Source of the DNA: a virus
IMG/VR virus record: IMGVR_UViG_3300021957_000217
Location: 1-28,791 of that record
Reading direction: 5' to 3' (one strand)
Length of the DNA stretch: 28,791 nt
Shown: positions 6,332 to 20,842 of the stretch, in pieces
How positions within the stretch are numbered: the first letter of the stretch is position 1
Layout of the letters: each line of letters opens with the position of its first letter
Notes under the pieces: model-generated
Databases searched by the model: none
Told to the model about the DNA's origin: nothing
The model's input: only the letters and a program-made list of their open reading frames with translations
Translations under genes and position numbers: made by a program

Positions 6332-7486
6332 TTGGATATTGATGTAAACGTAGTGTTTGAACACTTACTAGACAGTAAGACTAAAATAGTTGTTGAGCAG
6401 GGTGGAACAAGGTCTGGCAAGACTTTCAATATATTGATGTATATTATATTCCACTATTGTCAAATTAACAAAGGTAAAACAATAACCATTTGTCGTAAAA
6501 CATTTCCTGCGGTTAGGTCATCTGTAATGCGTGATTTTTTTGATATACTAAAGACACACGACAAATATAACGAAGCGTATCACAATAAGTCAAACAGCGA
6601 ATATACATTAGATGGCAACATAGTGGAGTTTATAAGTGTTGACCAACCCCAAAAGATTAGAGGACGTAAGAGGGATTTTCTTTTTATCAATGAAGGCAAT
6701 GAACTAGATTTTGAGGATTGGCAGCAACTAGTATTTAGAACCACTGAAAAAATAGTAATTGATTACAACCCATCTGACGAATATCATTGGATATATGACA
6801 AAGTATTAAATAGGGACGATGTTGAATTTTATAAAACCACATACCTAGATAACACATTCCTTGACCCTAGTATAATCAAAGAGATTGAAAGACTAAAAGA
6901 AACAGATGAACAATATTGGCAAATATATGGCTTAGGTGAAAAGGGAATAAGTAAGGCAACTATATTTAATTACTTTGAAGTACCACGTATTCCGATTGAT
7001 GCTGAACTGGTTTCATTTGGTGCAGATGCAGGTTACACAAATGACCCAAGCACCCTTGTAAGTGTTTACAAGAAAGACCATAACTTATATATTAAAGAAC
7101 ATCTGTATCGAACTATGATGACTACAAGTGACCTAAGCAATCATTTTAAACAAGAAGGTGTAGGGCGTAATCCAATATATTTCGATGCAGCAGAACCACG
7201 CTTAATAGATGAACTTAGAAGAATGGGTCATAATATACAGCCAAGTTTAAAAGGTAGGGATTCGGTAAACGCAGGGATTGATTTACTGAAACGCTTTAAA
7301 ATACATTTAGTTTCTTCTGATGATAACCTTATAATGGAGTTTAGAAATTACAAGTGGGTCACAGATAAAACAGGGAAGTTAACAAACACGCCTGTCGATA
7401 AAAATAACCACTTGATTGATGCGGTGAGATATGCAACCTATTCAATAATGAGCAGACCAAACTTTGGTAAATATGCAGTATCTTAA
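6332..7486 (+). CDS. terL: Terminase large subunit
   Basis: This 384-residue packaging motor belongs to the Terminase_3 type. The ATPase has Walker A GGTRSGKT (24-31), Walker B FLFINEGNE (116-124, Glu121 catalytic) and a coupling region IDYNPSDEYHW (about 143-153). The C-terminal RNase H-like nuclease has Asp232 in GADAGYTNDPS, Asp285 in YFDAAEPR and Asp363 in HLIDAVRYA. It translocates DNA into the prohead and cuts concatemers. The start is a TTG directly after the TAA of the small subunit gene. No ATG in this frame precedes Walker A, so TTG is the best start. Confidence 0.93.
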   Translation: MDIDVNVVFEHLLDSKTKIVVEQGGTRSGKTFNILMYIIFHYCQINKGKTITICRKTFPAVRSSVMRDFFDILKTHDKYNEAYHNKSNSEYTLDGNIVEFISVDQPQKIRGRKRDFLFINEGNELDFEDWQQLVFRTTEKIVIDYNPSDEYHWIYDKVLNRDDVEFYKTTYLDNTFLDPSIIKEIERLKETDEQYWQIYGLGEKGISKATIFNYFEVPRIPIDAELVSFGADAGYTNDPSTLVSVYKKDHNLYIKEHLYRTMMTTSDLSNHFKQEGVGRNPIYFDAAEPRLIDELRRMGHNIQPSLKGRDSVNAGIDLLKRFKIHLVSSDDNLIMEFRNYKWVTDKTGKLTNTPVDKNNHLIDAVRYATYSIMSRPNFGKYAVS

Positions 7487-7492
7487 AACTGC

Positions 7493-7513
7493 ACCACATA
7501 GGGGTATTTTTTT
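7493..7513 (+). terminator. Weak terminator-like hairpin after terL
   Basis: ACCAC (7493-7497) can pair with GGGGT (7501-7505) with one mismatch around ATA, followed by seven T at 7507-7513. The stem is short and imperfect, so this is tentative. Confidence 0.3.
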
Positions 7514-7537
7514 GTATCTTATAGTCACTAAAATAAA

Positions 7538-7562
7538 TTAAAAAACTTTATATATTAATATG
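7538..7562 (+). promoter_or_regulatory. Leader element at the tail chaperone start, copy 2
   Basis: TTAAAAAACTTTA (7538-7550) runs into TATATTAATATG, so the TTTATATATTAATA element (7547-7560) ends on the first base of the start codon. The same 13-base TTAAAAAACTTTA occurs at 18035-18047, six bases before the start at 18053. The A residues at -3 and -6 fit the start context favoured in Bacteroidota. Confidence 0.4.
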
Positions 7563-8204
7563 GAAGTAAAGTTAAGAATACCAACAACGTTAAATGAAAT
7601 CACTTTAGGGCAGTATCAAGAGTTTTCAAAACTAGATATTACAAAGGAATCAGAAGTACAATCTAAGATGATTGAGATATTCTGTAAAGTACCTGTTGAG
7701 GTTGTACGCTCAATGAAAGCAAAAGATATAACGGATATTTGTACCGTCATAAATACTATGTTTGATGTAGAGCATCAGATGTTGAATAGGTTTCAAATGA
7801 ACGGTAAAGATTACGGTTTTATACCAGACTTAGAAAATATAAGTTTTGGTGAGTATGTGGACTTGGATACGTTTATGGGTGATAACGATAACTTACATAG
7901 GGCTATGAATGTTTTATACAGACCTATTGATTTAAAACAAGGGCAGAGATATACGCTAAAAGAATACGACCCAGATACAAATGAAGAAGCTAAAAACTAT
8001 CCTTTAGATGCGTGTCTTGGTGCTATGGTTTTTTTTTACGATTTAGGGAAGGACTTATCGACAGTTATCCTGAACTCTTCGAGCAAACAGAACGAGGAGA
8101 ATTTAGTGCAATATCTGGCTTCACTACAAAATGGGGATGGTACAATTCAATCTATGCAATCGCTAACGGAGATATTACAAGGTTTGAAGATATCACTAAA
8201 CTAA
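7560..8204 (+). CDS. Tail assembly chaperone, unshifted product (gpG-like)
   Basis: This 214-residue protein has an opening strand and helix of a tail-chaperone type (KLRIPTTLNEITLGQYQEFS), a helical middle, and ends in a polar helix (SMQSLTEILQGLKISLN). By position and by the overlapping second frame it corresponds to the gpG-like half of a G/GT pair, which coats the tape measure during tail assembly. The last 56 codons overlap a second coding frame at -1. The start carries the repeated leader element. The family assignment is inferred from the frameshift architecture. Confidence 0.7.
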   Translation: MEVKLRIPTTLNEITLGQYQEFSKLDITKESEVQSKMIEIFCKVPVEVVRSMKAKDITDICTVINTMFDVEHQMLNRFQMNGKDYGFIPDLENISFGEYVDLDTFMGDNDNLHRAMNVLYRPIDLKQGQRYTLKEYDPDTNEEAKNYPLDACLGAMVFFYDLGKDLSTVILNSSSKQNEENLVQYLASLQNGDGTIQSMQSLTEILQGLKISLN

Positions 8205-8290
8205 ACGTACACGAGTGTTTAACCTACTTAACATATACAAAAGAGAAAAACGAAATTGAAGCAAGGAATATAAAAAACAAATTCAAATGA
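7560..8290 (+). CDS. Tail assembly chaperone, -1 frameshift product (gpGT-like)
   Basis: Slippage by -1 on the run of nine T at 8029-8037 would join the first 159 residues to 84 residues read in the other frame, giving 243 residues. The shifted part contains GEFSAISGFTTKWGWYNSIY and DITRFEDITKLNVHECLTY. This reads as a well-formed protein rather than noise and resembles a segment I recall from Bacteroidota phages. Its stop overlaps the next gene's ATG as ATGA, matching the packing seen elsewhere, whereas the unshifted stop leaves an 82-base gap. The frame has no ATG of its own, only a GTG at 8012. GT-type proteins bridge the tape measure and the tail tube subunit. Confidence 0.7.
8029..8037 (+). 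other. Probable -1 ribosomal frameshift slippery site
   Basis: Nine T follow ATGG. In the zero frame the codons are GTT, TTT, TTT, TAC, so the heptamer T TTT TTT at 8030-8036 is correctly phased for simultaneous -1 slippage of two phenylalanine tRNAs. A seven-pair hairpin with one G-U (8075-8081 with 8093-8099) lies 38 bases downstream, which is too far for a classical stimulator. Confidence 0.65.
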
Positions 8291-8757
8291 GCCAAACAGG
8301 AATAAGAGGTTATTATTTATTGACCCAAACTATTAAAAACGCATTACTAGGTGATATAAACGTTCATACAGTTACAGAGGGTGATTTGTTTGATATTGAT
8401 TTGTCTAAGCAAACGATATTCCCTTTATCGCATTTAATAGTTAATACTGTCACAGCACAAGAAAGTGTTTTAAGGTTTAACATTTCTATCTTAGCAATGG
8501 ATATAGTGGACGAAAGCAAAGAACCAACTTCAGATATATTTATAGGAAACAATAATGAGCAAGATGTTTTGAATACACAACTAGCGGTATTGAATAAGTT
8601 AGTACAGGTTTTAAGGCGTGGCGATTTATATAATGATAAATATCAATTAGAAGGTGATGCAAGTTTAGAACCGTTTGTAGATAGATTTGAAAACAAGGTA
8701 GCAGGATGGACTGCAACGTTTGATATATTTGTTAATAACGACATTGAAATATGTTAG
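8287..8757 (+). CDS. Putative tail terminator or head-tail joining protein
   Basis: This 156-residue protein is alpha/beta in character, with an N-terminal helix (GYYLLTQTIKNAL) and strands such as LIVNTV, LRFNISILAMDIVDE and WTATFDIFVNNDIE. The layout of a starting helix and a final long strand ending near an acidic tail fits small tail-completion proteins that cap the tube and join it to the head. The start overlaps the frameshift product as ATGA; the end overlaps the next gene by seven bases. Assignment is from position and general fold, so it is uncertain. Confidence 0.45.
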   Translation: MSQTGIRGYYLLTQTIKNALLGDINVHTVTEGDLFDIDLSKQTIFPLSHLIVNTVTAQESVLRFNISILAMDIVDESKEPTSDIFIGNNNEQDVLNTQLAVLNKLVQVLRRGDLYNDKYQLEGDASLEPFVDRFENKVAGWTATFDIFVNNDIEIC

Positions 8758-9281
8758 CAGATAAATCTTTACAAGAAGAATTAAACAAGTTCGCTAAGTA
8801 CGTTATACAGCAAAGCAGAAGCAACTTATCTAAAAGCGATAAGAACGACACTAAGGGACTTTATAATAGTTTAGGTTATAATGTAGAACTAACAAGTAAG
8901 GGTGCTGAATTGGGCTTTAGTATGGAACAATACGGAGAGTTTCAAGACAAAGGTGTTAGAGGTAAATCGTCAAGTGCAAAAGCACCAAACAGCCCGTTTA
9001 AATTTGGGAGTGGCACAGGGAAAAAAGGCGGTTTAACGAATAGTATTAATAAGTGGGTTAAACGAAAAGGAATACAGTTTAGAGATAGGAAATCTGGGAG
9101 GTATTTAAGTTATAAAAGTACAGCGTTTTTAATATCAAGAAGTATATACCAAAAAGGTATTAAGCCAAGTTTGTTTTTTACTAAGCCGTTTGTGGCAGCA
9201 TTTAAAAGACTTCCAGATGAACTAATTGAAGCGTATTCTTTAGGTTTAGAAAAAGATTTAATAAAATTAACAAAACGATAA
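8751..9281 (+). CDS. HK97 gp10-like neck/tail completion protein (putative)
   Basis: This 176-residue basic protein has the feature typical of gp10-type neck proteins: a helical start, then a strand ending in EQYGEFQDKGVRGK, where a Tyr-Gly-x-Phe-x-Asp-x-Gly motif precedes a flexible Gly/Ser/Lys-rich loop (GSGTGKKGGL). A C-terminal region with KGIKPSLFFTKPF and a final helix follows. These proteins act at the head-tail junction. The ATG overlaps the previous gene by seven bases. Confidence 0.55.
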   Translation: MLADKSLQEELNKFAKYVIQQSRSNLSKSDKNDTKGLYNSLGYNVELTSKGAELGFSMEQYGEFQDKGVRGKSSSAKAPNSPFKFGSGTGKKGGLTNSINKWVKRKGIQFRDRKSGRYLSYKSTAFLISRSIYQKGIKPSLFFTKPFVAAFKRLPDELIEAYSLGLEKDLIKLTKR

Positions 9282-9282
9282 A

Positions 9283-10395
9283 ATGGCAAAAATTAACACA
9301 AGAAGCCCTTATTATATATATTTAAATGAAAGCGATTTAACAAGTGCTAATTTAAAACTATGGATATATAGCGGAAACCAAGGAACAGCACCTACAACAC
9401 CAACTTACTCTTTAAATTCTACTGCTGTAAATTCAACAATTAATTTTGAGATATCAGAACTTGTTAGAGATTATATGGATTATAATCCTTCTATCGTTTC
9501 AACTCCTGTTATTTGGGTTGATTATCAAATTACAAAAATAGTTGCAGGGGTTGAGGTTGTTATGACAACAGTTCAAAACACTGGTTATTATGGTTACGGA
9601 TATTTCCAAGAGGGAATTAATCCACAAAATGATTCAAGCTTATTACAGTCTAATTTAAAAATAGTAAAGTTAGATGATGCAGCCGTTTATTTACCTATTG
9701 ATAGTACTAAAACTTCAAGTGTTTCTTTTTATCATAACGGACAAGAAATATATAAGCAAAACATTACTGGCTCATTATCAAATTTGTTTCAAATAAAATA
9801 CATAACAAATTCAGTTAGTCCATCTGATGAGTTTGAGGATAGGGTTTTAAATGATGGCGGTACTTTCGAGGACAACCTTTGTTTAGATTCATTCTTAGAT
9901 AGTACAACGTTATTTCCTGTTGACACCATATATGTTAATTCAATAGATGGAAGCGTTGACCTTATAAAGGTTGAAAACATTGAGGAATGCAAATATCAGC
10001 CTTACAAATTAATTTTTATAAATAAGTTCGGTGCATTGCAAGATGTGTGGTTTTTTAAACGTAGTAATAAGCAACTATCTACTAAAAAAGAGGGTTTCAA
10101 AAGAAATACACTTACAGCACTTGGCTATGCAATAGACCAACACCAACAAAAGAACCTATATAAAATGGGTACTGAAAAAATGGACTTAAACACTGGTTAC
10201 TACCCAGAAGATTATAACGATGTATTTAAGGAAATGCAGTTAAGCGAGGACTGTTGGATTGAAATAGATGGCGAAGTTTTACCAGTAAATATAAGCGATT
10301 CAAGTTTTAGCTACAAGACGAGTTTGAATGATAAGCTAATAAACTATAATATAAAGATTGATTTCGCTTTTGACACAATAAATAACATTAGATAG
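9283..10395 (+). CDS. Tail or baseplate structural protein, 370 aa
   Basis: The protein is beta-rich and starts with TRSPYYIYLNESDLTSANLK, then FEISELVRDYMDYNPS. Near its middle, after EECKYQPYKLIFINKFGALQ, comes DVWFFKRSNK, a segment I recall from Bacteroidota phage structural proteins. The absence of a signal peptide and its place between neck proteins and the large 868-residue tail protein suggest a distal-tail or baseplate component. Exact role unknown. Its stop abuts the next start. Confidence 0.55.
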   Translation: MAKINTRSPYYIYLNESDLTSANLKLWIYSGNQGTAPTTPTYSLNSTAVNSTINFEISELVRDYMDYNPSIVSTPVIWVDYQITKIVAGVEVVMTTVQNTGYYGYGYFQEGINPQNDSSLLQSNLKIVKLDDAAVYLPIDSTKTSSVSFYHNGQEIYKQNITGSLSNLFQIKYITNSVSPSDEFEDRVLNDGGTFEDNLCLDSFLDSTTLFPVDTIYVNSIDGSVDLIKVENIEECKYQPYKLIFINKFGALQDVWFFKRSNKQLSTKKEGFKRNTLTALGYAIDQHQQKNLYKMGTEKMDLNTGYYPEDYNDVFKEMQLSEDCWIEIDGEVLPVNISDSSFSYKTSLNDKLINYNIKIDFAFDTINNIR

Positions 10396-13002
10396 ATGCA
10401 GATAATTGACTTATATATAAGGGATGGGAATAAGTATAGTTCTAACGGAAATTTTCCAACTCAAACAAGGCTAGTTGATACATCAACAGACTTCACATTA
10501 AGTGACTTTAAAGTAGGTCAAATAATTAAAAACCTTAATTCAGGAGTAGAAGGTAAAATTACAGCAATAGCACCTAGTGGGAATGTTAATACTTTAGATA
10601 TTGATGGCGGAGGGTTTTCTGGTAACAATCAACCATATCAAATATATAACGAATTTACAAAGTTAGATTTGTTTAAAGATGAAAGCGTTTCTATTACAGA
10701 TAGTATTCAAAACGTAAAAGACCCATCTAAAATATTTGCACCATTTAGCCAACAGTTTAGTGTACCTGCTTCAAAGAATAACAATAAAGTTTTTAAACAT
10801 TATTATAATGGTAAGATTGAAAACAGTTACGATGCTAGATATAAAGGTGATGCGTTAATACAGCTAAACGGATTAAATTACAAAATAGGAAAGTTCAGCT
10901 TAACATCTGTTGAATTAAAAAACAATGTAGCTTATTCATATAAATTAGTTTTTACAGGTGAATCTGTTGAGTTTAAAGATTTACTAGCTGAGAATGAACT
11001 TAGTTCTTTAGATTACCCAGATACTTTAAATTTTGAGTATGATAGTGATTTTGTAAAAAGTAAATTAAGGGGTAGTGCAGCAGGTGATGATTTAGTGTTT
11101 CCACTTATAACGCATAGTAAGAATATGCGATACGGCTACAATGACCAAGAAGGGTATAAGGATGTTATAAGTAATACCCATATAAACTATTCTGATTTAA
11201 AACCTGCATTAAAAACTAAAGTTATTATTGATGCAATAGAAAACACTTATCCACAAATAAAATTTAGTCAACAGTTTTTTAATAGTTCTACATTTAAAAA
11301 GCTTTATATGTGGCTTCACAGAGAAGAAGGTTTTTTGTCTAATGCCGATGAAGGTGGTGCAGTTCAAACGATAAGCACTAGATTTTCGTATGTACACAGT
11401 GTTTGGACTGGTAATTACAATTATTATGACTTTGTTTCTGGAACAGAATTAAGACCTGCTGCACCTTTTGAAGATAATTTTTTTGGTCGTAATTGGGGAT
11501 ATTTATTCGAATTGACAGTTAATTCACCTGACCAAAATAGGACTTATGATGTACAAATATTAAGAAATTCTGATAATTCAGAAGTGGCAAATTTCAGTGG
11601 AACAGGAACTCAAACTTTTTCTCATCAATTTTCATTGGATAACTGGGGTGAGGAAATAATTAACGTGCAGATAAATATAATAACAGCCAACACTTTAGGA
11701 ATGTCACAAGACTTGGTTGTTACTGAAAATTACAGGTTTGGGAACAGTAGTTGGCAGTCTTATGACCAAGGGGTTTATGAAAAGTCAGCACCTACATCTG
11801 CAAACGTAGTGACAATAAGCAGACAAATGCCTAAAATTAAAATATTTGATTTTCTTAAAAACATTTTTACGATGTTTAATTTAACTGCATATAAAGAGGA
11901 CGGGATTATTAATGTTTTACCTTTAGATGATTATTACAATGCAGGAAATTATTATGACATTACCGAGTATGTAGATACACAGAAATCAAAAGTGTCTAAA
12001 TTATTGCAGTTTAAAAATATGTTATTTAAGTTTAAAAGTAAAAAATCATATTTAGTACAGTTTTCAGAAGAACAACAAGGCAATAAATTTTCAGAAGAAA
12101 GTTATGGAAATGACAAATGGGATGGGGGTAATTATAAAGTTGAAGTTGGTTTTGAGAAAATGATGTACGAAAGATTAACTGATGAAGAAACAGGTAATTT
12201 AACTGCGGTGACACAGGGTGCTATGTTAGATAAAAAGTTTGAACCAACAATCGGTGAGCCTTTATTACTTTATTGTTTAAGTACACAAACTTCTGGCGGT
12301 GTTTCTAATAGGCTTTTATTTGAAGAACCCGATGGAAGTACAACGACTATTAACCCTTATATAAGACCCTCAAACTCTTTACCAAATTTATTTTTTGGAA
12401 GGGTTTTTAATACTTTAAATTTTGGTGTTGAAATTGATGAATACACTTTAACCACAGGTACACAAGCTGTCTCTGATGATTTATTTACTAAGTATTACAG
12501 AAATTATGTGGCTAATATTTTCGCAAGGGATTCTAGAAAATTAAATGTTACTGCTTATTTACCTTTAAATGTAATTTTAAATTATAGACTAAATGATGTT
12601 TTTATTATAAATAATACCGAGTACAGAATAAACTCAGTAAAGACAAATCTACTGACAAACAAAACAGATTTAGAATTGTACAATTTACAAGTGAATACAT
12701 CGCAAAGCATAAACGGACAAAGACCAGATTTAAGCAGAGTTCAGAATTTAGAAACAACAAGCAAAACATCTTCTACGATAGCTTTTGATTGGGATGCTAT
12801 AACCGATTCTAACCTTATTAAATATGATATATATATAGATGATGTTTATGATACTTCTGTTTTATCTACCGAGCCTACTGGCAAGGAACGGTTAAATTTA
12901 GATTCTGACACAACTTATAAAATATCTATAAGACCAATTTACGATATAGACGGAACTGAGTTTGCAGCGTTTGACACTGATTTATTTGAAACAACACTAT
13001 AA
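10396..13002 (+). CDS. Large tail/baseplate protein with C-terminal FN3 domain
   Basis: At 868 residues this is the longest protein in the window. The N terminus (IIDLYIRDGNKY, then VDTSTDFTLSDFKVGQIIKN) is beta-rich. The middle has segments such as FAPFSQQFSVPASKNN, KIFDFLKNIFTMFNLTAYKE and DGIINVLPLDDYYNAG, reminiscent of tail hub or host-contact proteins. Residues about 775-868 look like a fibronectin type III domain: SRVQNLETTSKTSSTIAFDW, a YDIYIDD strand, then TTYKISIRPIYD. FN3 domains are common on phage tail proteins and may contact the cell surface. It likely forms the tail tip with its neighbour. Confidence 0.6.
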   Translation: MQIIDLYIRDGNKYSSNGNFPTQTRLVDTSTDFTLSDFKVGQIIKNLNSGVEGKITAIAPSGNVNTLDIDGGGFSGNNQPYQIYNEFTKLDLFKDESVSITDSIQNVKDPSKIFAPFSQQFSVPASKNNNKVFKHYYNGKIENSYDARYKGDALIQLNGLNYKIGKFSLTSVELKNNVAYSYKLVFTGESVEFKDLLAENELSSLDYPDTLNFEYDSDFVKSKLRGSAAGDDLVFPLITHSKNMRYGYNDQEGYKDVISNTHINYSDLKPALKTKVIIDAIENTYPQIKFSQQFFNSSTFKKLYMWLHREEGFLSNADEGGAVQTISTRFSYVHSVWTGNYNYYDFVSGTELRPAAPFEDNFFGRNWGYLFELTVNSPDQNRTYDVQILRNSDNSEVANFSGTGTQTFSHQFSLDNWGEEIINVQINIITANTLGMSQDLVVTENYRFGNSSWQSYDQGVYEKSAPTSANVVTISRQMPKIKIFDFLKNIFTMFNLTAYKEDGIINVLPLDDYYNAGNYYDITEYVDTQKSKVSKLLQFKNMLFKFKSKKSYLVQFSEEQQGNKFSEESYGNDKWDGGNYKVEVGFEKMMYERLTDEETGNLTAVTQGAMLDKKFEPTIGEPLLLYCLSTQTSGGVSNRLLFEEPDGSTTTINPYIRPSNSLPNLFFGRVFNTLNFGVEIDEYTLTTGTQAVSDDLFTKYYRNYVANIFARDSRKLNVTAYLPLNVILNYRLNDVFIINNTEYRINSVKTNLLTNKTDLELYNLQVNTSQSINGQRPDLSRVQNLETTSKTSSTIAFDWDAITDSNLIKYDIYIDDVYDTSVLSTEPTGKERLNLDSDTTYKISIRPIYDIDGTEFAAFDTDLFETTL

Positions 13003-13005
13003 AAT

Positions 13006-13146
13006 ATGATTAAATTAATAATAGAAAGTTTAAAGTACGCTAACGGAGAAACCGAAAATCTAAGGATAGCACAAGGGAAATACAAATTACCAACAACAAT
13101 TAAAGAAAGTTACAAATCTTTAAAACAAGAAATGAAATGGCAATAG
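13006..13146 (+). CDS. Small basic protein, 46 aa
   Basis: A short ORF lies between the large tail protein and the tape measure, overlapping the latter by ten bases. The product is Lys-rich with MIKLIIESLKYANGE followed by IAQGKYKLPTTIKESYKSL. No family recognised. Position and clean packing support it. Confidence 0.45.
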   Translation: MIKLIIESLKYANGETENLRIAQGKYKLPTTIKESYKSLKQEMKWQ

Positions 13147-14888
13147 AAAAAACAATAGAATTAAATGTAGATAGTAAAGGCGCACAAGCTGATTTTGGTA
13201 AGTTAGCTGATGCAATACAAGAACTTAATAAAACTTTTTCTAAGTTTTCAGAAGATACAACTGATGGCTTAGAAGATGTGAAAAAGGGTGCTGAAAAAAC
13301 ATCTAAGGGTGTAGGTTCTATTGGTAAAACATTGAAAAATCTTGGTTCAGGAATTGGAGTTGTTTTCTTATTAAATAAGGCTTTTGAAATATTTAAGAAA
13401 TTAGCAGAGGAAAATCAAGTTGTACTAGATGCTTTCAATACTGTATTTGAAGTTTTAAGCATTGCATTTAACGACTTCTTTAATTTTGTTATAGATAATT
13501 CTAGTGGTATAATTAGCTTCTTTAAAGCTATATTTGAAGACCCTTTAGGCTCTATCAAAGATTTTGGAAGGTTAGTTAAGGAGAATATAATAGAACGAAT
13601 GACATCCACTTTAGAGGTGGCAGGTCATTTAGGTAAGGCACTTAAAAAACTATTCACAGGCGATTTTAAGGGTGCTATTGATTCCGTTAAAGATGCAGGT
13701 AAAGAAATGGTTGATGTTATTACAGGTGTTGATGATTCGGCAGATAAAATTGTTGAGGGTGTAAATTCTATTACAACAGCCGTTACTAATTACGCAACTG
13801 AAACCGTAAAAGCAGCACAAGAAAATGTTAAACTCGCAAAGGCTTCTGAGTTAGCAGCAGTTAAAAATCAAGGTTTAATTGAAAGTTATGATAGACAAGC
13901 TGAACTACTTAGGCAAACAAGGGACGATGAAAGTAAAAGTATTGAGGAAAGAATAAAAGCAAATGAAGATTTAGCTAAGGTTTTAGATGACCAAGAAAAA
14001 GCAATGAAAGAAAACGCTGCTATATTAGTAAGGAGAGCGGAAGTTGAGTTGGCTAAAAACAAGGAGAGTATTGAATTACAAAAAGCGTATCAAGAAGCAC
14101 TGAACGAACAGGCAGGGATTGAAGCACAAATAACAGGGTTTAGAAGTGAACAGCAAACTAATACAAATTCATTACTAAAAGAGCAAAAAGAAATTGCACA
14201 AGAACTTGCTTTAATTGGAAAAGATGAACGAGAGATTGAAAGACAGGAATTGCTTAACAACTATGAAGCTAAAAAAGAATTAATAAACAGAGAAGTAACA
14301 GATAAAATTGAAAAAGATGCGTTACTATTAGAAGCAGAAGGAACATACAGGGAACAGTTAAACGAATTAAATAAAAGTTATTCAGATGCTTCTGTTGATA
14401 TAGCTAAAAAAGAAAGTGAAGCTAAACAAAAAGCATTAAATGGATATGCTAGTGCATTAAGCGATATATCTGGCGTTCTAGGTCAAGAAACAGAAGCAGG
14501 TAAAGGGATTGCGATTGCATCGTCTTTGGTTAATACTTATGCAGCAATATCAGGACAATTAAAAGCGTTTTCTGGAGTTCCAATCCCAGGTTATGCTATT
14601 GCACAAGCTATTGCAACAGGTGTAACAGGGTTCGCACAAGTCAAGAAAATTGCAAGTGTAAAAATACCAAACAGCGGAGGGGGTGGTGGTTCAACAGGAA
14701 GCCCTCCAAGTGGTGGGTCTGCACCAACACCGCCAAGTTTTAATGTTGTAGGTTCAAGTGAAACAAGTGCTTTGGGTGATGCGGTTGCAAGTCAAACAAA
14801 CGAACCAGTTCAAGCGTATGTAGTTTCAAACGATGTAACAACAGCACAAAGTTTACAGAACAATATCGTTGAAGGTGCTACAATATAA
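13137..14888 (+). CDS. Tail tape measure-like protein
   Basis: The 583-residue protein has the layout of a siphovirus tape measure. A polar start (IELNVDSKGAQADFGKLADA) leads to hydrophobic segments at about 70-86 and 95-135, then a long charged coiled-coil region (about 215-430, with KSIEERIKANEDLAKVLDDQ), a small-residue hydrophobic stretch (IAIASSLVNTYAAISGQL) and a Gly/Pro/Ser linker from about 513. The final segment has PVQAYVVSNDVTTAQSL. Tape measures set tail length and form a channel for DNA. It is short for the family and lies far from the chaperone pair, so other coiled-coil structural roles are possible. Confidence 0.65.
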   Translation: MAIEKTIELNVDSKGAQADFGKLADAIQELNKTFSKFSEDTTDGLEDVKKGAEKTSKGVGSIGKTLKNLGSGIGVVFLLNKAFEIFKKLAEENQVVLDAFNTVFEVLSIAFNDFFNFVIDNSSGIISFFKAIFEDPLGSIKDFGRLVKENIIERMTSTLEVAGHLGKALKKLFTGDFKGAIDSVKDAGKEMVDVITGVDDSADKIVEGVNSITTAVTNYATETVKAAQENVKLAKASELAAVKNQGLIESYDRQAELLRQTRDDESKSIEERIKANEDLAKVLDDQEKAMKENAAILVRRAEVELAKNKESIELQKAYQEALNEQAGIEAQITGFRSEQQTNTNSLLKEQKEIAQELALIGKDEREIERQELLNNYEAKKELINREVTDKIEKDALLLEAEGTYREQLNELNKSYSDASVDIAKKESEAKQKALNGYASALSDISGVLGQETEAGKGIAIASSLVNTYAAISGQLKAFSGVPIPGYAIAQAIATGVTGFAQVKKIASVKIPNSGGGGGSTGSPPSGGSAPTPPSFNVVGSSETSALGDAVASQTNEPVQAYVVSNDVTTAQSLQNNIVEGATI

Positions 14889-14911
14889 AAAACAAAAATA
14901 AATAAATTTAA

Positions 14912-14926
14912 TTATATATTATTATG
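14912..14926 (+). promoter_or_regulatory. Leader element at the protease start, variant copy
   Basis: TTATATATTATTATG differs by one base from the TTATATATTAATATG found at 7548 and 18666 and again ends in the start codon. It lies in a 35-base AT-only gap that begins a new gene group. Confidence 0.35.
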
Positions 14927-15847
14927 AGAATAGTCGAATTAATATTAGACGAGGAAAGCGAACTAGGAATTGAAGCTATAAGCGTAGTGGAATCTCCTGC
15001 TATTGAAGAAGATTTTGTTGCTCTAAAAAGCCAAGAATTTAAACTAGCAGAAATAGATGGAGAGCGTAGAATATTAATGGGTGCTTTATTGATACCTAAC
15101 AAGCCTATTTATAGACGTAACGGAGAAGACGAATACTATATATATTTTTCAAAAGATACTGTCTTAAAAGCTAGTCAAATGTATTTAATGAATAGTAAGC
15201 AAAACAACTCAACACTAGAACACCAATACGAATTGGAAGGTTTAAGTTTAGTTGAAAGTTGGATAGTTGAAGATAAGGTGCACGATAAGAGCGTAAAGTT
15301 TGGAATGGATTTACCTTTAGGTTCTTGGGTTGGTAGTGTTAAAGTAAACAACGATAAAATCTGGAATGAGTTTGTGAAAACTGGTAAAGTAAAAGGGTTT
15401 AGTATTGAGGGATATTTCGCTGACAAAATGGAACGTCCAAACGATGCGACAATAAAAGACGAATTAGCAGCTATTGAAGAAGCAGAAGCCGAATATTTGC
15501 TTAGTCAAGTTATAGCGGTTTTAACTAATGAAGATGTAGAATTAGAAAGCTATTCTGACTACCCTAGTTCAGTAAGTAACAACGCTAAAAGAGGTTTAAA
15601 ACTTAACGAAGCAGTGAACAATAAATGTGCTACACAGGTCGGAAAAGTAAGGGCGCAGCAATTAGCACAAGGGAAACCGATAAGCAAAGAAACTATAAAA
15701 AGAATGTTTAGCTATTTGTCAAGGGCAGAAGCGTATTACAAGCCAGAAGATACAGAGGCTTGTGGAACTATCTCTTTTTTGTTATGGGGTGGCAAATCAG
15801 CGAAAACGTGGGCAGAAAGTAAACTAAACGAAATAAATAATAAATAA
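14924..15847 (+). CDS. XkdF-like prohead protease with extra C-terminal domain
   Basis: The N-terminal part (about residues 1-195) resembles the XkdF-like putative serine protease family. IEAISVVESPAIEEDFVAL is the usual opening, RRILMGALLIPNKPIYRR follows, then a histidine in LEHQYELEGLSLVESWIVED, and a serine in KVKGFSIEGYFADKM. The His and Ser are plausible catalytic residues. Residues about 210-305 form a second domain with SNNAKRGLKLNEAVNNKC, VGKVRAQQLAQGKPISKET, SYLSRAEAYYKPED and ISFLLWGGKSAKTWAESKL. I recall this domain from other Bacteroidota phage proteins, without known role. The protease would mature the scaffold and capsid encoded just downstream. Confidence 0.75.
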   Translation: MRIVELILDEESELGIEAISVVESPAIEEDFVALKSQEFKLAEIDGERRILMGALLIPNKPIYRRNGEDEYYIYFSKDTVLKASQMYLMNSKQNNSTLEHQYELEGLSLVESWIVEDKVHDKSVKFGMDLPLGSWVGSVKVNNDKIWNEFVKTGKVKGFSIEGYFADKMERPNDATIKDELAAIEEAEAEYLLSQVIAVLTNEDVELESYSDYPSSVSNNAKRGLKLNEAVNNKCATQVGKVRAQQLAQGKPISKETIKRMFSYLSRAEAYYKPEDTEACGTISFLLWGGKSAKTWAESKLNEINNK

Positions 15848-15848
15848 A

Positions 15849-16214
15849 ATGAGTAAAGAAAAAGCATTAAAATTAATCAACGAGTATTTAGCAAAGCAAG
15901 AGCCTAAAAAATTGGAGTTATCTAAAATTGATGATTTATTAAATTGGTCGAAAGGTGGGGATTCAGACCCATTTGGAGAGCTTTCTGACTTAGTGAAATT
16001 AGCAAATAAACTTGAAAATAAATTATATAATAAAATGCAAGATGTTGAAGCTAAACAAAAAGAAAGCTCCAAATTGAGACAAATGGCAAAAGAATTAGGT
16101 GCAGATAAATTGCTAAATACTTTAGATAGTGCTGATAAGTTATTATCTGTTAAAATAAAAAATATACGTTCTGTAATTAAGTTAATTCAGAGGGCAACAC
16201 AGAGTAGAATATAA
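15849..16214 (+). CDS. Coiled-coil hypothetical protein, 121 aa
   Basis: A helical, Lys/Leu-rich protein with heptad-like spacing in LVKLANKLENKLYNKMQ and VEAKQKESSKLRQMAKEL. It lies one base after the protease gene and abuts a small Cys-rich gene. Position in the capsid-maturation group suggests a head-assembly accessory. No family recognised. Confidence 0.55.
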   Translation: MSKEKALKLINEYLAKQEPKKLELSKIDDLLNWSKGGDSDPFGELSDLVKLANKLENKLYNKMQDVEAKQKESSKLRQMAKELGADKLLNTLDSADKLLSVKIKNIRSVIKLIQRATQSRI

Positions 16215-16379
16215 ATGAATAGATTTAAAAAACTATTTAGCCCAAGTAAAACAAGCCCAAAGGGTGGGCGTAAAGGTTGCCTATGCAGGGATAGGGATGC
16301 TTACTCTATTGAATGTTGTAATGGAGATATAATATCTCAGGGTATCGGTTCAATTTCTAAAAATGAAAATGCAAATTAA
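16215..16379 (+). CDS. Small Cys-rich phage protein, 54 aa
   Basis: This 54-residue ORF starts directly after the preceding stop. It encodes a basic start (MNRFKKLFSPSKTSPKGGRK) followed by GCLCRDRDAYSIECCNGDII and QGIGSI. The CxC and CC pairs with Gly-rich surroundings recur, as I recall, in tiny proteins of the head region of Bacteroidota phages. The four cysteines could bind zinc or form disulfides in the virion. Function unknown. Confidence 0.65.
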   Translation: MNRFKKLFSPSKTSPKGGRKGCLCRDRDAYSIECCNGDIISQGIGSISKNENAN

Positions 16380-16402
16380 ATTAATCTAAATTATATATAA
16401 GT

Positions 16403-17026
16403 ATGAAATCAAACAACGTGATTGAAAAAATCAAAGACGTTCTAAACCTTAACGAAGAAGTTAAGCTAGAACAAGCTAAACTAGACAACGGTACAGTGAT
16501 TGAAGCTGACTCGTTCGAAAGTGGCGTGGAAGTGTTTATCGTTACAGAAGATGAGAAAGTTGCTTTGCCTATTGCCGAGTACATATTGGAAGACGGTAAA
16601 ATATTAGTGGTAGCAGAAGAAGGTGTAATTGCTGAAATCAAAGATGCTGAAGCTGAAGAAGAAGTTGAAGAAACTGAAGCAGAAGAAGTTGAGGTTGAAG
16701 CGGCTGAAGAAGAAGAAATGGGCTATGCTACTAAAGAAGAACTAGCAGAAGTAAAAGATATGATTGAAGAAATCAAAGCAATGCTAGAACCAAAAGAAGA
16801 TTTGAGTTCTGATGACTTAGGAAACCTTTTAACAGAAGAATTAGCTAAACACGAAAGAGTAGAGTTAAACGAAGTACCTGTTGAAGTACAAGCTGAACTA
16901 AACGAGCCAAGTGCCGAGCCTATCGTATCAAATCCAGAAGTAAAAAAAGCTATATCAAAATTCAGTGTTTCTAAAAACAGAAAAAGCACTACCATTGATA
17001 GAGTAATGGCAAGATTAAACAATTAA
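16403..17026 (+). CDS. Acidic head scaffold-like protein
   Basis: This 207-residue protein lies directly before the major capsid protein, the usual place of a scaffold. An N-terminal beta region (KLDNGTVIEADSFESGVEVF, then VVAEEGVIAEIKDAEA) leads into a long Glu-rich helix (about 80-140; the DNA is a run of GAA/GAG codons) and a basic tail (KFSVSKNRKSTTIDRVMARL) suited to bind capsid subunits. Scaffold proteins are usually removed or cut by the protease, here encoded upstream. The start bears a variant of the leader element at 16391-16405 (TTATATATAAGTATG). Confidence 0.65.
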   Translation: MKSNNVIEKIKDVLNLNEEVKLEQAKLDNGTVIEADSFESGVEVFIVTEDEKVALPIAEYILEDGKILVVAEEGVIAEIKDAEAEEEVEETEAEEVEVEAAEEEEMGYATKEELAEVKDMIEEIKAMLEPKEDLSSDDLGNLLTEELAKHERVELNEVPVEVQAELNEPSAEPIVSNPEVKKAISKFSVSKNRKSTTIDRVMARLNN

Positions 17027-17048
17027 TAACAACTAAAAACTAAATAAA

Positions 17049-17984
17049 ATGAGTGTATCATTAACAACAACTTATGCAGGTGAATTTAGTGGCAAATACA
17101 TTGCTGCTGCTTTACTATCTGCTGACACTTTGGATAAAGGGTTAATTACCGTAATGCCAAACGTAAAATTCAAATCTGTAATTCAAAAGGCTGCAACTGA
17201 TGACATCGTAAAAGATGCTTCTTGTGACTTTCAAACAGATGCAGGAACGCTAACTTTAACAGAAGCTATCCTACAACCAGAAGAATTTCAAGTGAACCTT
17301 GATATTTGTAAGAAAACATTACACGATTCTTGGGAAGCTGAAAAAATGGGCTTTAGTGCTTTTGATGAATTAGCACCAAGCTTTGCTGATTTCGTAATCG
17401 GACACGTTGCTTCTAAGGTAGCAGATAGAACAGAGAAAAATATCTGGTCTGGTTCAACTGCAACAAGCGGACAGTTTGACGGGTTTGCAACTTTATTAGA
17501 TGCTGACACAAATCTTCCTAGTGGGCAAGATTTAACAGGTGCTGCAATTACATCAGCAAATGTTTTAGATGAACTAGGTGCTGTTGTAGATGCAATTCCA
17601 ACAGCTGTTTATGGCTCAGATGATTTATATATCTATGCTGCTTCTGATGTAGTACGTGCTTATACTCGTGCTTTAGGAGGATTCCAATCAGGTGGGCAAG
17701 GTGCAAGCGGATACGAAAACAAAGGAAACAACCAATCTTTAGGTTCTTTATTCTTTGATGGTATTCCAGTAGTAGCTATTAGAGGTGCAGCAGCAGGAAC
17801 TATTGTAGCAGCTGAAAAATCAAACTTATTCTTCGGGACAGGTCTTTTAAATGACTTGAACGAAGTACGAGTAATTGATATGGCAGAAAATGATGGTTCT
17901 CAAAATGTACGTATCGTAATGAGATTTACAGCAGGAGTTCAGTATGCACAAGTAACTGATATCGTTTACAGAAAAACTGTATAA
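17049..17984 (+). CDS. Major capsid protein (HK97 fold)
   Basis: The 311-residue protein has features of HK97-fold capsid proteins in Bacteroidota phages: an extended N-terminal arm (LTTTYAGEFSGKYIAAALLS), VMPNVKFKSVIQKAATDD, a helical spine region with SWEAEKMGFSAFDELAPSFA and VASKVADRTEKNIWSG, and an A-domain ending in VRIVMRFTAGVQYAQVTDIV. It follows protease and scaffold genes and is followed by a strong terminator. It would form the icosahedral shell. No separate signal of cleavage can be read with certainty. Confidence 0.85.
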   Translation: MSVSLTTTYAGEFSGKYIAAALLSADTLDKGLITVMPNVKFKSVIQKAATDDIVKDASCDFQTDAGTLTLTEAILQPEEFQVNLDICKKTLHDSWEAEKMGFSAFDELAPSFADFVIGHVASKVADRTEKNIWSGSTATSGQFDGFATLLDADTNLPSGQDLTGAAITSANVLDELGAVVDAIPTAVYGSDDLYIYAASDVVRAYTRALGGFQSGGQGASGYENKGNNQSLGSLFFDGIPVVAIRGAAAGTIVAAEKSNLFFGTGLLNDLNEVRVIDMAENDGSQNVRIVMRFTAGVQYAQVTDIVYRKTV

Positions 17985-18003
17985 TAATTAACTAATCAAA
18001 TTT

Positions 18004-18032
18004 AAAGGGGTGGGTTCTGCCTACCCTTTTTT
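18004..18032 (+). terminator. Rho-independent terminator after the capsid gene
   Basis: AAAGGGGTGGG (18004-18014) pairs with CCTACCCTTTT (18020-18030) over eleven pairs including two G-U, around a five-base loop (TTCTG), within a T-rich tract. This is the strongest terminator seen in the window. Confidence 0.85.
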
Positions 18033-18052
18033 ATTTAAAAAACTTTAAAAAT

Positions 18053-18580
18053 ATGGGATGCTTAATAACTAGCGGACGTAAAGTGCCTTGTAAGTCAGCA
18101 GTAGGTGGAATTAAAACCATTTACTTTGCAGATTACGGTACTTTAGGACTTCCAACAATCGTAGCAGGTGAAATCACAAACCTAGGGGGTAACGCTATAT
18201 TTTATCAGTTTGATGTAAAAGGTAACAGTTCAATGGAAACTGCTATCACTTCAAGCCGAGAAAACGGGACAACTTTTTACGATACTACACTAAATATGAC
18301 TTTAACCTTTCAAGATGTAGCTACACAAGAACAACTTAAATTAATCGCTCACGCACGTCCACACGTAGCTGTCGAAGATTACAACGGGAACTTCTTTATT
18401 GTAGGTCTTGAAAATGGTGCTGATGTAAACGGTGGTACAATCGTTACAGGTGCTGCAATGGGAGATTTAACAGGATATACTTTAACGCTGAATGCACAAG
18501 AAACTGCACCGCCTTACTTTATTGATCCTGAAGAAATCTTAACAGAATCTTCACCAGTACAAATTGACCCAACGGCTTAA
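18053..18580 (+). CDS. Major tail tube-like structural protein
   Basis: The 175-residue protein starts GCLITSGRKVPCKSAVGGIK and then TIYFADYGTLG, followed by strands such as IFYQFDVKGNSSMETAITSS and DTTLNMTLTFQDVATQEQL, then HVAVEDYNGNFFIVGLENG. This alternating beta pattern with a central helix suits a tail tube fold, and I recall related proteins called structural in Bacteroidota phages. It stands alone between two terminators, as expected for a protein needed in an amount different from its neighbours. A head-decoration protein is the main alternative. Confidence 0.55.
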   Translation: MGCLITSGRKVPCKSAVGGIKTIYFADYGTLGLPTIVAGEITNLGGNAIFYQFDVKGNSSMETAITSSRENGTTFYDTTLNMTLTFQDVATQEQLKLIAHARPHVAVEDYNGNFFIVGLENGADVNGGTIVTGAAMGDLTGYTLTLNAQETAPPYFIDPEEILTESSPVQIDPTA

Positions 18581-18603
18581 TTAGTACTTTTACTTATAAA
18601 ACT

Positions 18604-18632
18604 GGGTTATCTTAACGGATAGCCCTTTTTTT
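18604..18632 (+). terminator. Rho-independent terminator after the tail tube-like gene
   Basis: GGGTTATC (18604-18611) pairs with GATAGCCC (18618-18625) over eight pairs, one G-U, around TTAACG, followed by seven T. Confidence 0.85.
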
Positions 18633-18664
18633 ATATCTACACAATACAAAATATTTGTTTTTTA

Positions 18665-18680
18665 TTTATATATTAATATG
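18665..18680 (+). promoter_or_regulatory. Leader element TTTATATATTAATATG, copy 3
   Basis: Exact match over 16 bases with the element at 7547-7562, again ending in the start codon. It follows a terminator, so the downstream genes need new transcription starting in this gap. That is a point in favour of a promoter role. Confidence 0.4.
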
Positions 18681-19028
18681 AAGTTAATAAGCACAAGCGG
18701 AAATAAAAGCTTTAAGATAATTCCAAGAGAATTTACAGTAGGTACATTGAACCTAAAATTGACTAGTGAAAGTACAAACAAAACTATTACGGTTGATGCT
18801 ACATCGGTTATTGATGGTAATTATATTTCGTTTGATGCTGTTTTCGGTGCTTTAACTGAAAGCGATTTTTATATATTAGACGTTATTTATTCAAATAACA
18901 TAATTTATAAGGATAAGATTTTTTGCACAGACCAAGCAATTAATCAAAGTAATGATGAATATTACAGCGTAAATAAAGACCAATATATAAGTGAAGAAAG
19001 TTCGGATAACGAATTTATAATAATATAA
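18678..19028 (+). CDS. Structural protein of unknown role, 116 aa
   Basis: A beta-rich small protein with FKIIPREFTVGTLNLKL, a strand ending FDAVFGALTESDFYILDVIY and the distinctive KIFCTDQ, then NKDQYISEE and a hydrophobic end FIII. The KIFCTDQ and NKDQY segments resemble a family of small proteins near the portal in Bacteroidota phages, from memory. It lies two bases before the portal gene. Confidence 0.55.
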   Translation: MKLISTSGNKSFKIIPREFTVGTLNLKLTSESTNKTITVDATSVIDGNYISFDAVFGALTESDFYILDVIYSNNIIYKDKIFCTDQAINQSNDEYYSVNKDQYISEESSDNEFIII

Positions 19029-19030
19029 AT

Positions 19031-20842
19031 ATGAACGATTTAAGAATAGTAAATTTAAGTACCTACACAACACCAGATATTGTTGAGAAGTCCAATAAAG
19101 AATGGGTTTCTTATGGTTCTGATAACAATTATTTTAAGTACTTAATTGACCGATATAATGGTAGCCCAACAAATAACGCTATTATAAATGGAATTAGTGA
19201 AATGATTTACGGACGTGGACTAGATGCTTTAAACTCAAATAAAAAGCCAGAACAGTACGCTAAAATGATTTCTTTGTTTCATAAAGATATGGTTCGTAAA
19301 TTATGCTACGACCTTAAATTAATGGGTCAATGTGCTATGCAGGTAATTTATTCTAAGGATAAAAAAACAGTTGCACAAGTTGAACATATTCCTGTTGAAA
19401 ATTTAAGAGCAGAGAAATGTAATGACAAAGGCGATATAGAAGCTTATTACTATTCTGATAACTGGAAAAAAGTTAAAAACGTAGGGGATACAACTAGAAT
19501 CCCATCTTTTGGTTGTAGTACTGAAAATATAGAGATTATATATGTAAAGCCTTACAGAGCAGGATATAAATACTATTCAAGTCCAGATTATGCAGGTGGT
19601 TTACAATATGCAGAACTAGAACAAGAGATAAGCAACTATCATTTAAACAATATCTTGAACGGTTTAGCACCTTCGATGTTGATTAATATGAATAATGGTA
19701 CACCAAACGCTGAAGAACGCCAAGCCTTAGAAAATAGAATATATCAAAAGTTTAGCGGTTCAAGTAATGCAGGTAAATTTATACTAGCTTTTAACGACAA
19801 TCCAGAAAGTGCAGCAACTATTGAGCCTATTCAGTTAAGCGAAGCACATCAGCAGTATCAGTTTTTAAGTGATGAAAGTTCTAAAAAAGTAATGGTAGCA
19901 CATAGAGTTGTTTCGCCTATGCTTTTAGGTATTAAAGATAATAGCGGACTTGGTAATAATGCAGAAGAATTAAAAACAGCTAGTACATTAATGGATAACA
20001 CCGTTATAAGACCATTTCAGATGCTTTTAATAGATGCTTTTGATTCTATACTAGCATTCAACCAAATGAGCCTTAAACTGTACTTTAAAACGCTTCAACC
20101 GTTGGAATTTACAGACTTAGAGAATGTTGAGGATGCAGAAACACGAGAAGAAGAAACAGGGGTTAAATTAAGTCAAGATTTACCAGATGAATTAGGAAGT
20201 AATATTGCTGATGAATTAATCGACTTAGGAGAGAGTGAAGAAGAACTACTAGCCGAATATGATTTAGTGGATGAAAGCGAAGTTGATTATGAACTAAACG
20301 ATGAACTTGATGAAGTTATAACAGACTTAAACACCGAGCCAGAACAATCTGCACTATCTAAAATATGGAATTTTGTAAGCACAGGAACGGCTAAACCAAA
20401 CGCAAAAAGTACACAAGATGGCAAATCAAAACAAGATAGTCAAAAAGGTGTACAGTTCTTAGTGCGTTATTCTTATGCACCAGAAAAAGCAGGGTCAAAC
20501 AGTCGACAGTTTTGCTCTAAAATGATAGGTGCTAAAAAGGTTTATCGTAAAGAGGACATTGTGGCAATGGGAAAAAAGTCCGTAAATGCAGGTTTCGGAA
20601 AAGGTGGCTCTGACACTTACAGCATCTGGTTATATAAAGGCGGTGCTAGGTGTAATCATAAGTGGTTTAGGAAAACTTACCAAATTAAAAACGGTGAAAA
20701 AAGCCAAATAACAAGTGGTCAAGCAAAAAGTAAAGGTTTTAAAGCACCTAAGAACGCTCAAAAAGTACCAGTAGCACCAAAGGATATGAAGTATAAAGGT
20801 TATACTGCTGAATATTGGAACAAAATGAAATTCAAAAACTAA
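19031..20842 (+). CDS. Portal protein with C-terminal Cys/His domain
   Basis: The 603-residue protein has portal features: SDNNYFKYLIDRYNGSPTNN and NGISEMIYGRGLD near the start, KLMGQCAMQVIY, LQYAELEQEISNYHLNNILN, and NAEELKTASTLMDNTVIRPF for the crown helices. The twelve-subunit portal ring admits DNA into the head and anchors the tail. After an acidic linker (about 370-450) a second domain occupies about 473-550: SRQFCSKMIGAKKVYRKEDI, then TYSIWLYKGGARCNHKWFRK. This Cys-x-His-x-Trp pattern resembles a domain seen on some phage minor head proteins. Portal confidence is high; the role of the C-terminal domain is open. Confidence 0.82.
   Translation: MNDLRIVNLSTYTTPDIVEKSNKEWVSYGSDNNYFKYLIDRYNGSPTNNAIINGISEMIYGRGLDALNSNKKPEQYAKMISLFHKDMVRKLCYDLKLMGQCAMQVIYSKDKKTVAQVEHIPVENLRAEKCNDKGDIEAYYYSDNWKKVKNVGDTTRIPSFGCSTENIEIIYVKPYRAGYKYYSSPDYAGGLQYAELEQEISNYHLNNILNGLAPSMLINMNNGTPNAEERQALENRIYQKFSGSSNAGKFILAFNDNPESAATIEPIQLSEAHQQYQFLSDESSKKVMVAHRVVSPMLLGIKDNSGLGNNAEELKTASTLMDNTVIRPFQMLLIDAFDSILAFNQMSLKLYFKTLQPLEFTDLENVEDAETREEETGVKLSQDLPDELGSNIADELIDLGESEEELLAEYDLVDESEVDYELNDELDEVITDLNTEPEQSALSKIWNFVSTGTAKPNAKSTQDGKSKQDSQKGVQFLVRYSYAPEKAGSNSRQFCSKMIGAKKVYRKEDIVAMGKKSVNAGFGKGGSDTYSIWLYKGGARCNHKWFRKTYQIKNGEKSQITSGQAKSKGFKAPKNAQKVPVAPKDMKYKGYTAEYWNKMKFKN

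Follow-up and report, generated by a model that had tools for sequence, protein, structure and literature searches.

Two reading frames of a tail-region gene are joined at a conserved run of nine T in a large family of marine viruses of Bacteroidetes

The stretch of DNA analyzed here (28,791 nucleotides, hereafter the window) is a 28.8-kb virus record carrying a set of tail and head genes. The gene of interest is located directly downstream of the large terminase gene (6332-7486) and is separated from the tape measure gene (13137-14888) by further genes, one of which encodes a long protein that gave a fibronectin-type match. Beyond the tape measure gene come the gene of an XkdF-type protease (starting at 14924), head genes, and the portal gene (19031). 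The gene order within region 6332-20842 is unusual, since the large terminase gene (6332) is followed first by the tail genes and the tape measure gene (13137), and only then by the genes of the protease, the capsid region and the portal (14924-20842). A run of nine A (2586-2594), among the few A9 runs in these genes, is present at the 3' end of ORF 2130-2597, where slippage would change only the last residues.

The 0-frame gene (7560-8204, plus strand) starts with ATG at position 7560, ends with a TAA codon (8202-8204) and encodes a protein of 214 amino acids, composed of an N half (159 amino acids, through the end of the slip site), common to both predicted products, and a 55-residue 0-frame tail. 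The two parts meet at a run of nine T (8029-8037, plus strand), the putative slippage site, which is read in the 0 frame as the codons GTT TTT TTT TAC and contains the in-phase heptamer T_TTT_TTT (8030-8036, plus strand), a possible ribosomal slip site. The C half is encoded in the -1 frame (8036-8290, plus strand), as indicated by alignments, by predicted structure and by independent scans with the C half: the first codon past a -1 slip is TTA (8036-8038), and the frame is then open for 84 codons to a TGA stop codon (8288-8290). This stop overlaps the ATG (8287) of the next gene (8287-8757, plus strand) in the tetranucleotide ATGA, and the same 4-base overlap was found in 217 relatives. The -1 frame of the window contains no internal ATG; the ORF listing starts it at a GTG (8012), 5' of the run. 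The coordinates given in a preliminary description of the locus, as well as its phasing of the heptamer, proved correct. The dual-coded stretch that it reported exists (8037-8201, plus strand), with a length of 55 rather than 56 codons.

When the synonymous codons of the 0-frame peptide were randomized according to the codon usage of the genes, the -1 frame remained open in 0.45-0.72% of trials. In the converse test, with the -1 peptide held fixed, the 0 frame was open in 0.08-0.77% of trials. Since an open frame is rare under synonymous randomization in either direction, the dual-coded stretch is not a product of chance.

Relatives of the gene were collected by several routes. A first scan, with the 0-frame protein as the query, yielded 80 IMG/VR loci of 50-97% identity, and all those reaching the site had T9 or T10 and an open -1 frame; a tblastn search matched the cultured Nonlabens phages P12024L and P12024S at 29%. 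The sample was widened using (i) alignments in which the Nonlabens protein or a relative of 50% identity was the head sequence, (ii) scans with the C half only (search motif KWGWY), which are independent of the slip site, (iii) scans with N-half motifs located away from the site, and (iv) scans of bacterial genomes, which added loci in Flagellimonas onchidii, Galbibacter pacificus and two more genomes. The final set consists of 486 loci (IMG/VR contigs, prophages and P12024L/S), with some contigs entered twice, and represents 158 lineages below 80% identity, 78 below 60% and 33 below 50%, these lineages being not fully independent. Prophages carrying the gene are rare among flavobacteria (3 of 397 genomes of the family and 1 of 395 genomes of the order), and T9 was present in each of the four prophage loci checked.

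The junction run proved to be strongly conserved: T9 occurs in 434 of the 486 loci and T10 in 50, with one locus having T12 and another T8, i.e., at least nine T are present in 485/486. The sole locus with a shorter run (L447; T8, phase 2) has 93%-identical relatives (L498 and L499) with T10 at this position, the difference being a G/T rearrangement beside the run. In all loci in which both halves are detectable (484/484), the C half lies in the -1 frame. Both this relation and the run of at least nine T hold whether the loci were found via the N half or independently via the C half. The frame other than 0 and -1 meets a stop within seven codons in 407/407 loci. The C half varies narrowly in length (80-92 codons) and the 0-frame tail widely (16-88 codons); the C domain and the common N half thus probably carry the function, the 0-frame tail being mainly a permissive ending.

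The same arrangement is found in the two cultured Nonlabens phages (Inhavirus), which encode homologues of both halves (P12024L_40/P12024L_41 and P12024S_38/P12024S_39); the halves meet at T9, and the large terminase gene immediately precedes them. Their 0-frame tail extends for 25 codons after the core, compared with 55 in the window. In GenBank, the halves are annotated in both phages as two separate hypothetical proteins. This annotation, together with the GTG at 8012 in the window, would agree with the C half being a separate gene with its own start, a reading that we group with sequencing error and pseudogene formation. However, conservation of the C half begins with the first codon past the run, 5' of the annotated start in P12024L, and an independent start was rejected on these grounds together with the lack of an ATG in the -1 frame of the window. 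The recurrence of T9 in hundreds of contigs, in cultured phages and in host-isolate genomes speaks against a pseudogene and rules out a sequencing or assembly error, and as a whole this group of explanations is barely credible. Long homopolymers are also mutable in principle, and replication slippage could create a phase-variable (contingency) locus, with genomes toggling between separate and fused forms. However, among the 484 loci, which come from independent samples, there were no out-of-register run lengths and no in-frame joins, and T10 and T12 are confined to loci whose flanking codon preserves the -1 relation. The lack of out-of-register lengths led us to discard phase variation, which we regard as very improbable.

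Codon-position differences, calculated pairwise for 51 non-redundant relatives of equal length, indicated selection acting on both frames. Before the run, differences at 0-frame positions 1, 2 and 3 amount to 0.144, 0.105 and 0.404, respectively, as compared with 0.074, 0.167 and 0.154 in the overlap and 0.041, 0.298 and 0.053 past the 0-frame stop, a region in which the third position of the -1 codons falls on position 2. Differences at four-fold-degenerate sites of the 0 frame fall from 0.46 (95% interval 0.40-0.52) to 0.12 (0.04-0.20) in the overlap, and those of the -1 frame are 0.17 (0.08-0.27) inside the overlap versus 0.39 outside it (0.22-0.59, from eight codons only). The position pattern and the lower four-fold differences within the overlap for each frame are the signs by which purifying selection on both frames is recognized here. 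The preliminary description had proposed a probable programmed -1 shift on the T run, to be abandoned if the run were not conserved in relatives or the -1 frame showed no selection. The conserved run, the selection in both frames and the presence of the arrangement in cultured phages all uphold the proposal.

The level at which the frame is changed is a separate matter. An in-phase heptamer of the X_XXY_YYZ type, as used in ribosomal -1 frameshifting, is present in every locus in the form T_TTT_TTT. However, any T9 within a gene contains such a heptamer in phase, and the heptamer alone therefore cannot decide the mechanism. What is conserved is the length of the run and not the heptamer only. 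The run occupies three codon phases (2+6+1, 3+6+0 and 1+6+2 T), and the codons flanking the core TTT TTT vary together: when the following codon starts with T, the preceding codon is usually GTT, CTT or ATT; when it starts with C or G, the preceding codon is TTT; and when it starts with TT, the preceding codon may be GGT, AGT or GAT. On permutation of the flanks among lineages, 4.7-11.5 runs shorter than nine would be expected, as compared with the 0-1 seen, and 0 of 20,000 permutations matched the observation (P < 5e-5). As judged from these sequences, the flanks compensate for each other, so that the total stays at nine T or more. A tree of 160 sequences indicates about five separate gains of the phase-0 T9 and about two of the phase-2 T9. 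The sequence T_TTT_TTC, on which a Phe tRNA should be able to slip as well, never takes the place of T_TTT_TTT, yet 57 of 394 upstream Phe codons in the clade of the window are TTC.

Amino acid constraint was also considered as the sole reason for the conservation of T9, and could account in part for single positions. When the codon following the core starts with T, it encodes Y, W, S, F, C or L. When it starts otherwise, it encodes V, G or L, and the core is then invariably preceded by TTT. Part of the conservation could reflect residues read in two frames; the flank pattern speaks against this constraint as the whole explanation.

Avoidance of T runs was analyzed across 931 kb of the remaining genes on the contigs that carry the loci, in comparison with within-gene synonymous shuffles. 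T8 was found 4 times versus 38 expected, and runs of at least nine T were absent versus 16 expected. The frequency of T7 falls to 0.55 of that expected in the heptamer phase and to 0.38 and 0.51 in the other two phases; as T7 is no rarer in the heptamer phase than elsewhere, avoidance tracks the length of the run and not its codon phase. Moreover, T8 is avoided far more strongly than A8 (0.10, 4/38 expected, versus 0.53, 78/146 expected). The rU:dA hybrid is weak in transcription, and a stronger avoidance of T than of A is expected from this. The asymmetry is strand-specific and suggests slippage or pausing at the transcript level in these phages or their hosts. It is not expected from replication slippage, which acts on the duplex, and so counts further against phase variation.

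The preliminary description reported no close hairpin. A weak stem does start about 5 nt past the run in the window (-15 kcal/mol, z -1.3), but it is not conserved in relatives: with pseudoknot-free folding, no conserved downstream RNA structure was found among 21 lineages (mean z -0.08, versus -0.39 in a control region). Some known ribosomal frameshift sites have no downstream structure.

The mechanism implied by the preliminary description was a -1 slip of the ribosome on U_UUU_UUU, of the kind known from lambda G/GT, in which two Phe-tRNAs would re-pair one base back and the fusion would be translated from the U9 mRNA. The in-phase heptamer at every locus and the weak stem 3' of the run in the window are consistent with it, and the tail-chaperone recoding described in PMC5009743 and PMC10885494 is all ribosomal. 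Nevertheless, seven T would be enough for this mechanism, yet at least nine are maintained, with compensation by the flanks; T_TTT_TTC is never used, the downstream structure is not conserved, and a phased T7 is not specially avoided in other genes. In addition, U_UUU_UUU is far less shift-prone in Escherichia coli than A_AAA_AAG (PMC5009743). Taken as the source of the fusion, ribosomal frameshifting is in our opinion rather unlikely; the -1 change and the tail-chaperone-like role proposed in that description stand, and a ribosomal slip on T_TTT_TTT is not the best supported cause.

The conserved unit, i.e., at least nine T in any phase, and the lack of a conserved stimulatory structure point instead to slippage of the RNA polymerase. 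Baranov and colleagues proposed that a run of nine A or T which joins two ORFs, and whose length is kept among homologues, is evidence of purposeful transcriptional slippage (PMC1088944), and transcriptional slippage has been measured in Shigella mxiE and Citrobacter tssM (PMC4256274). The locus analyzed here resembles these and other such systems (Shigella spa13, the A9 runs of Thermus dnaX and of IS elements, and the A11 run of Citrobacter tssM), in which a length-conserved A or T run of at least nine also joins two ORFs; in transcriptional-slippage systems the ORFs are joined by an indel in the mRNA and a stimulatory structure is not needed. It differs from them in being a phage tail-module gene of a very broad phage group, in using T instead of A, in having a long dual-coded stretch with selection in both frames, and in being known from sequence alone. 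Given the run length of at least nine, conserved irrespective of phase and compensated by the flanks, the length-based avoidance of T runs in other genes and the lack of a conserved structure, we infer that transcriptional slippage is quite probably the main mechanism; both mechanisms could act.

Slippage of the RNA polymerase would proceed as follows. The U9 mRNA, read normally, would give the 214-amino-acid protein with its predicted disordered tail, and slippage on T9, favored by the weak rU:dA hybrid, would produce a fraction of mRNAs with one extra U (U10). The insertion of one U would lead directly to the -1 frame, and one gene would thus yield two proteins with a common folded N half.

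No Pfam family was found for the N half or the C half. The N half corresponds to PHROG 32199, of unknown function, and the C half is represented by PHROG 38404, a short family to which no function is assigned. A weak match to the tail family PHROG 166 was found in 8 of 20 members; P12024L gave no match to it. The structure of the N half is predicted confidently over most of residues 1-165, and the 0-frame tail of the window is predicted to be disordered. The C half is a conserved, predicted helical domain with the motif KWGWY. In fold searches, the N half matched uncharacterized phage proteins, and two weak, low-ranking BFVD matches are named tail assembly chaperone (E 0.16 and 0.23). Against the PDB, the N half had no match of note and the C half nothing above Z 2.5. 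Several deposited BFVD proteins of 226-267 amino acids (including A0A516L611, A0A516L5A8, A0A6J5N0W0, A0A6J5SVK3 and A0A6J7WDG4) match the models of both halves, and distant relatives may therefore encode the N and C halves as a fusion in a single ORF. Another protein, R9VW65 of Flavobacterium phage 6H (KC959568; L330, 9752-10927, minus strand), shows a weak structural relationship to the N half, and past the stop of its gene there are protein-like stretches in two other frames, which may represent sequence errors or another recoding arrangement. With a structural match this weak and downstream frames that look broken, it was left out as a homologue.

The nearest functional parallel is found in the tail genes of lambda and HK97. 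As with lambda gpG/gpGT and the -1 product of HK97 gp13, two products with a common N half are predicted, the longer one arising by a -1 change in an overlap near the end of the first ORF (the -1 relation being found in 484/484 loci), and, as with gpG/gpGT, the gene belongs to the tail module and the next gene overlaps the -1 stop. The differences are that lambda uses a heptamer such as G_GGA_AAG, whereas T9 is a homopolymer with an overlap of about 55 codons in most members, and that lambda G/GT frameshifting is programmed and ribosomal, whereas the evidence here favors transcriptional slippage. In a lambda-type pair, the gene is flanked directly by those of the major tail protein and the tape measure protein. 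Here it follows the large terminase gene, and the tape measure gene lies 4.8 kb downstream, in line with the preliminary description, which had placed it far from the run. An hhalign comparison with single lambda G and T sequences, which has low power, found nothing. The gene appears to work like lambda G/GT; membership in that family is not claimed, because the gene is not beside the tape measure gene and similarity to the G and T sequences is undetectable. No phage tail-chaperone gene ascribed to transcriptional slippage was found in the literature searched, which left most subscription journals outside it and does not prove novelty.

The tail-module neighbors, the weak match to PHROG 166, the two low-ranking fold matches and the analogy with lambda suggest that the products probably have a chaperone-like role. 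By analogy with gpG/gpGT, the two forms would probably act as tail-assembly chaperones in a set ratio, the N half probably binding one tail component (the tape measure protein) and the tail tube being the probable partner of the C domain; as chaperones, they would be expected to be missing from virions. We consider it probable that the gene yields two proteins by RNA polymerase slippage on T9 and that these form a tail-chaperone-like pair. The broader proposal, that a group of tailed Bacteroidetes phages sets the ratio of its tail-chaperone forms at transcription, via slippage on a near-invariant T9, has in our view an even chance of being correct. If it is, lambda-type ribosomal frameshifting has been replaced, or independently invented, at another level of gene expression. 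A parallel is provided by dnaX, whose frame change is ribosomal in E. coli and transcriptional in Thermus.

The frameshift itself, in one gene of the tail region, is real across this large family of marine viruses of Bacteroidetes, and the annotation of both halves in databases as separate hypothetical proteins should be corrected. Recoding of tail chaperones is the textbook case of conserved ribosomal frameshifting in phages. In this phage group, which is abundant in metagenomic contigs and nearly absent from culture, the two-product logic is kept and the site fits polymerase slippage. If this is confirmed, the T9 site would offer a natural, highly constrained system for studying slippage of Bacteroidetes RNA polymerase, and it would mean that what phage tail assembly conserves is the pair of products, whereas the level of gene expression that generates this pair is exchangeable.
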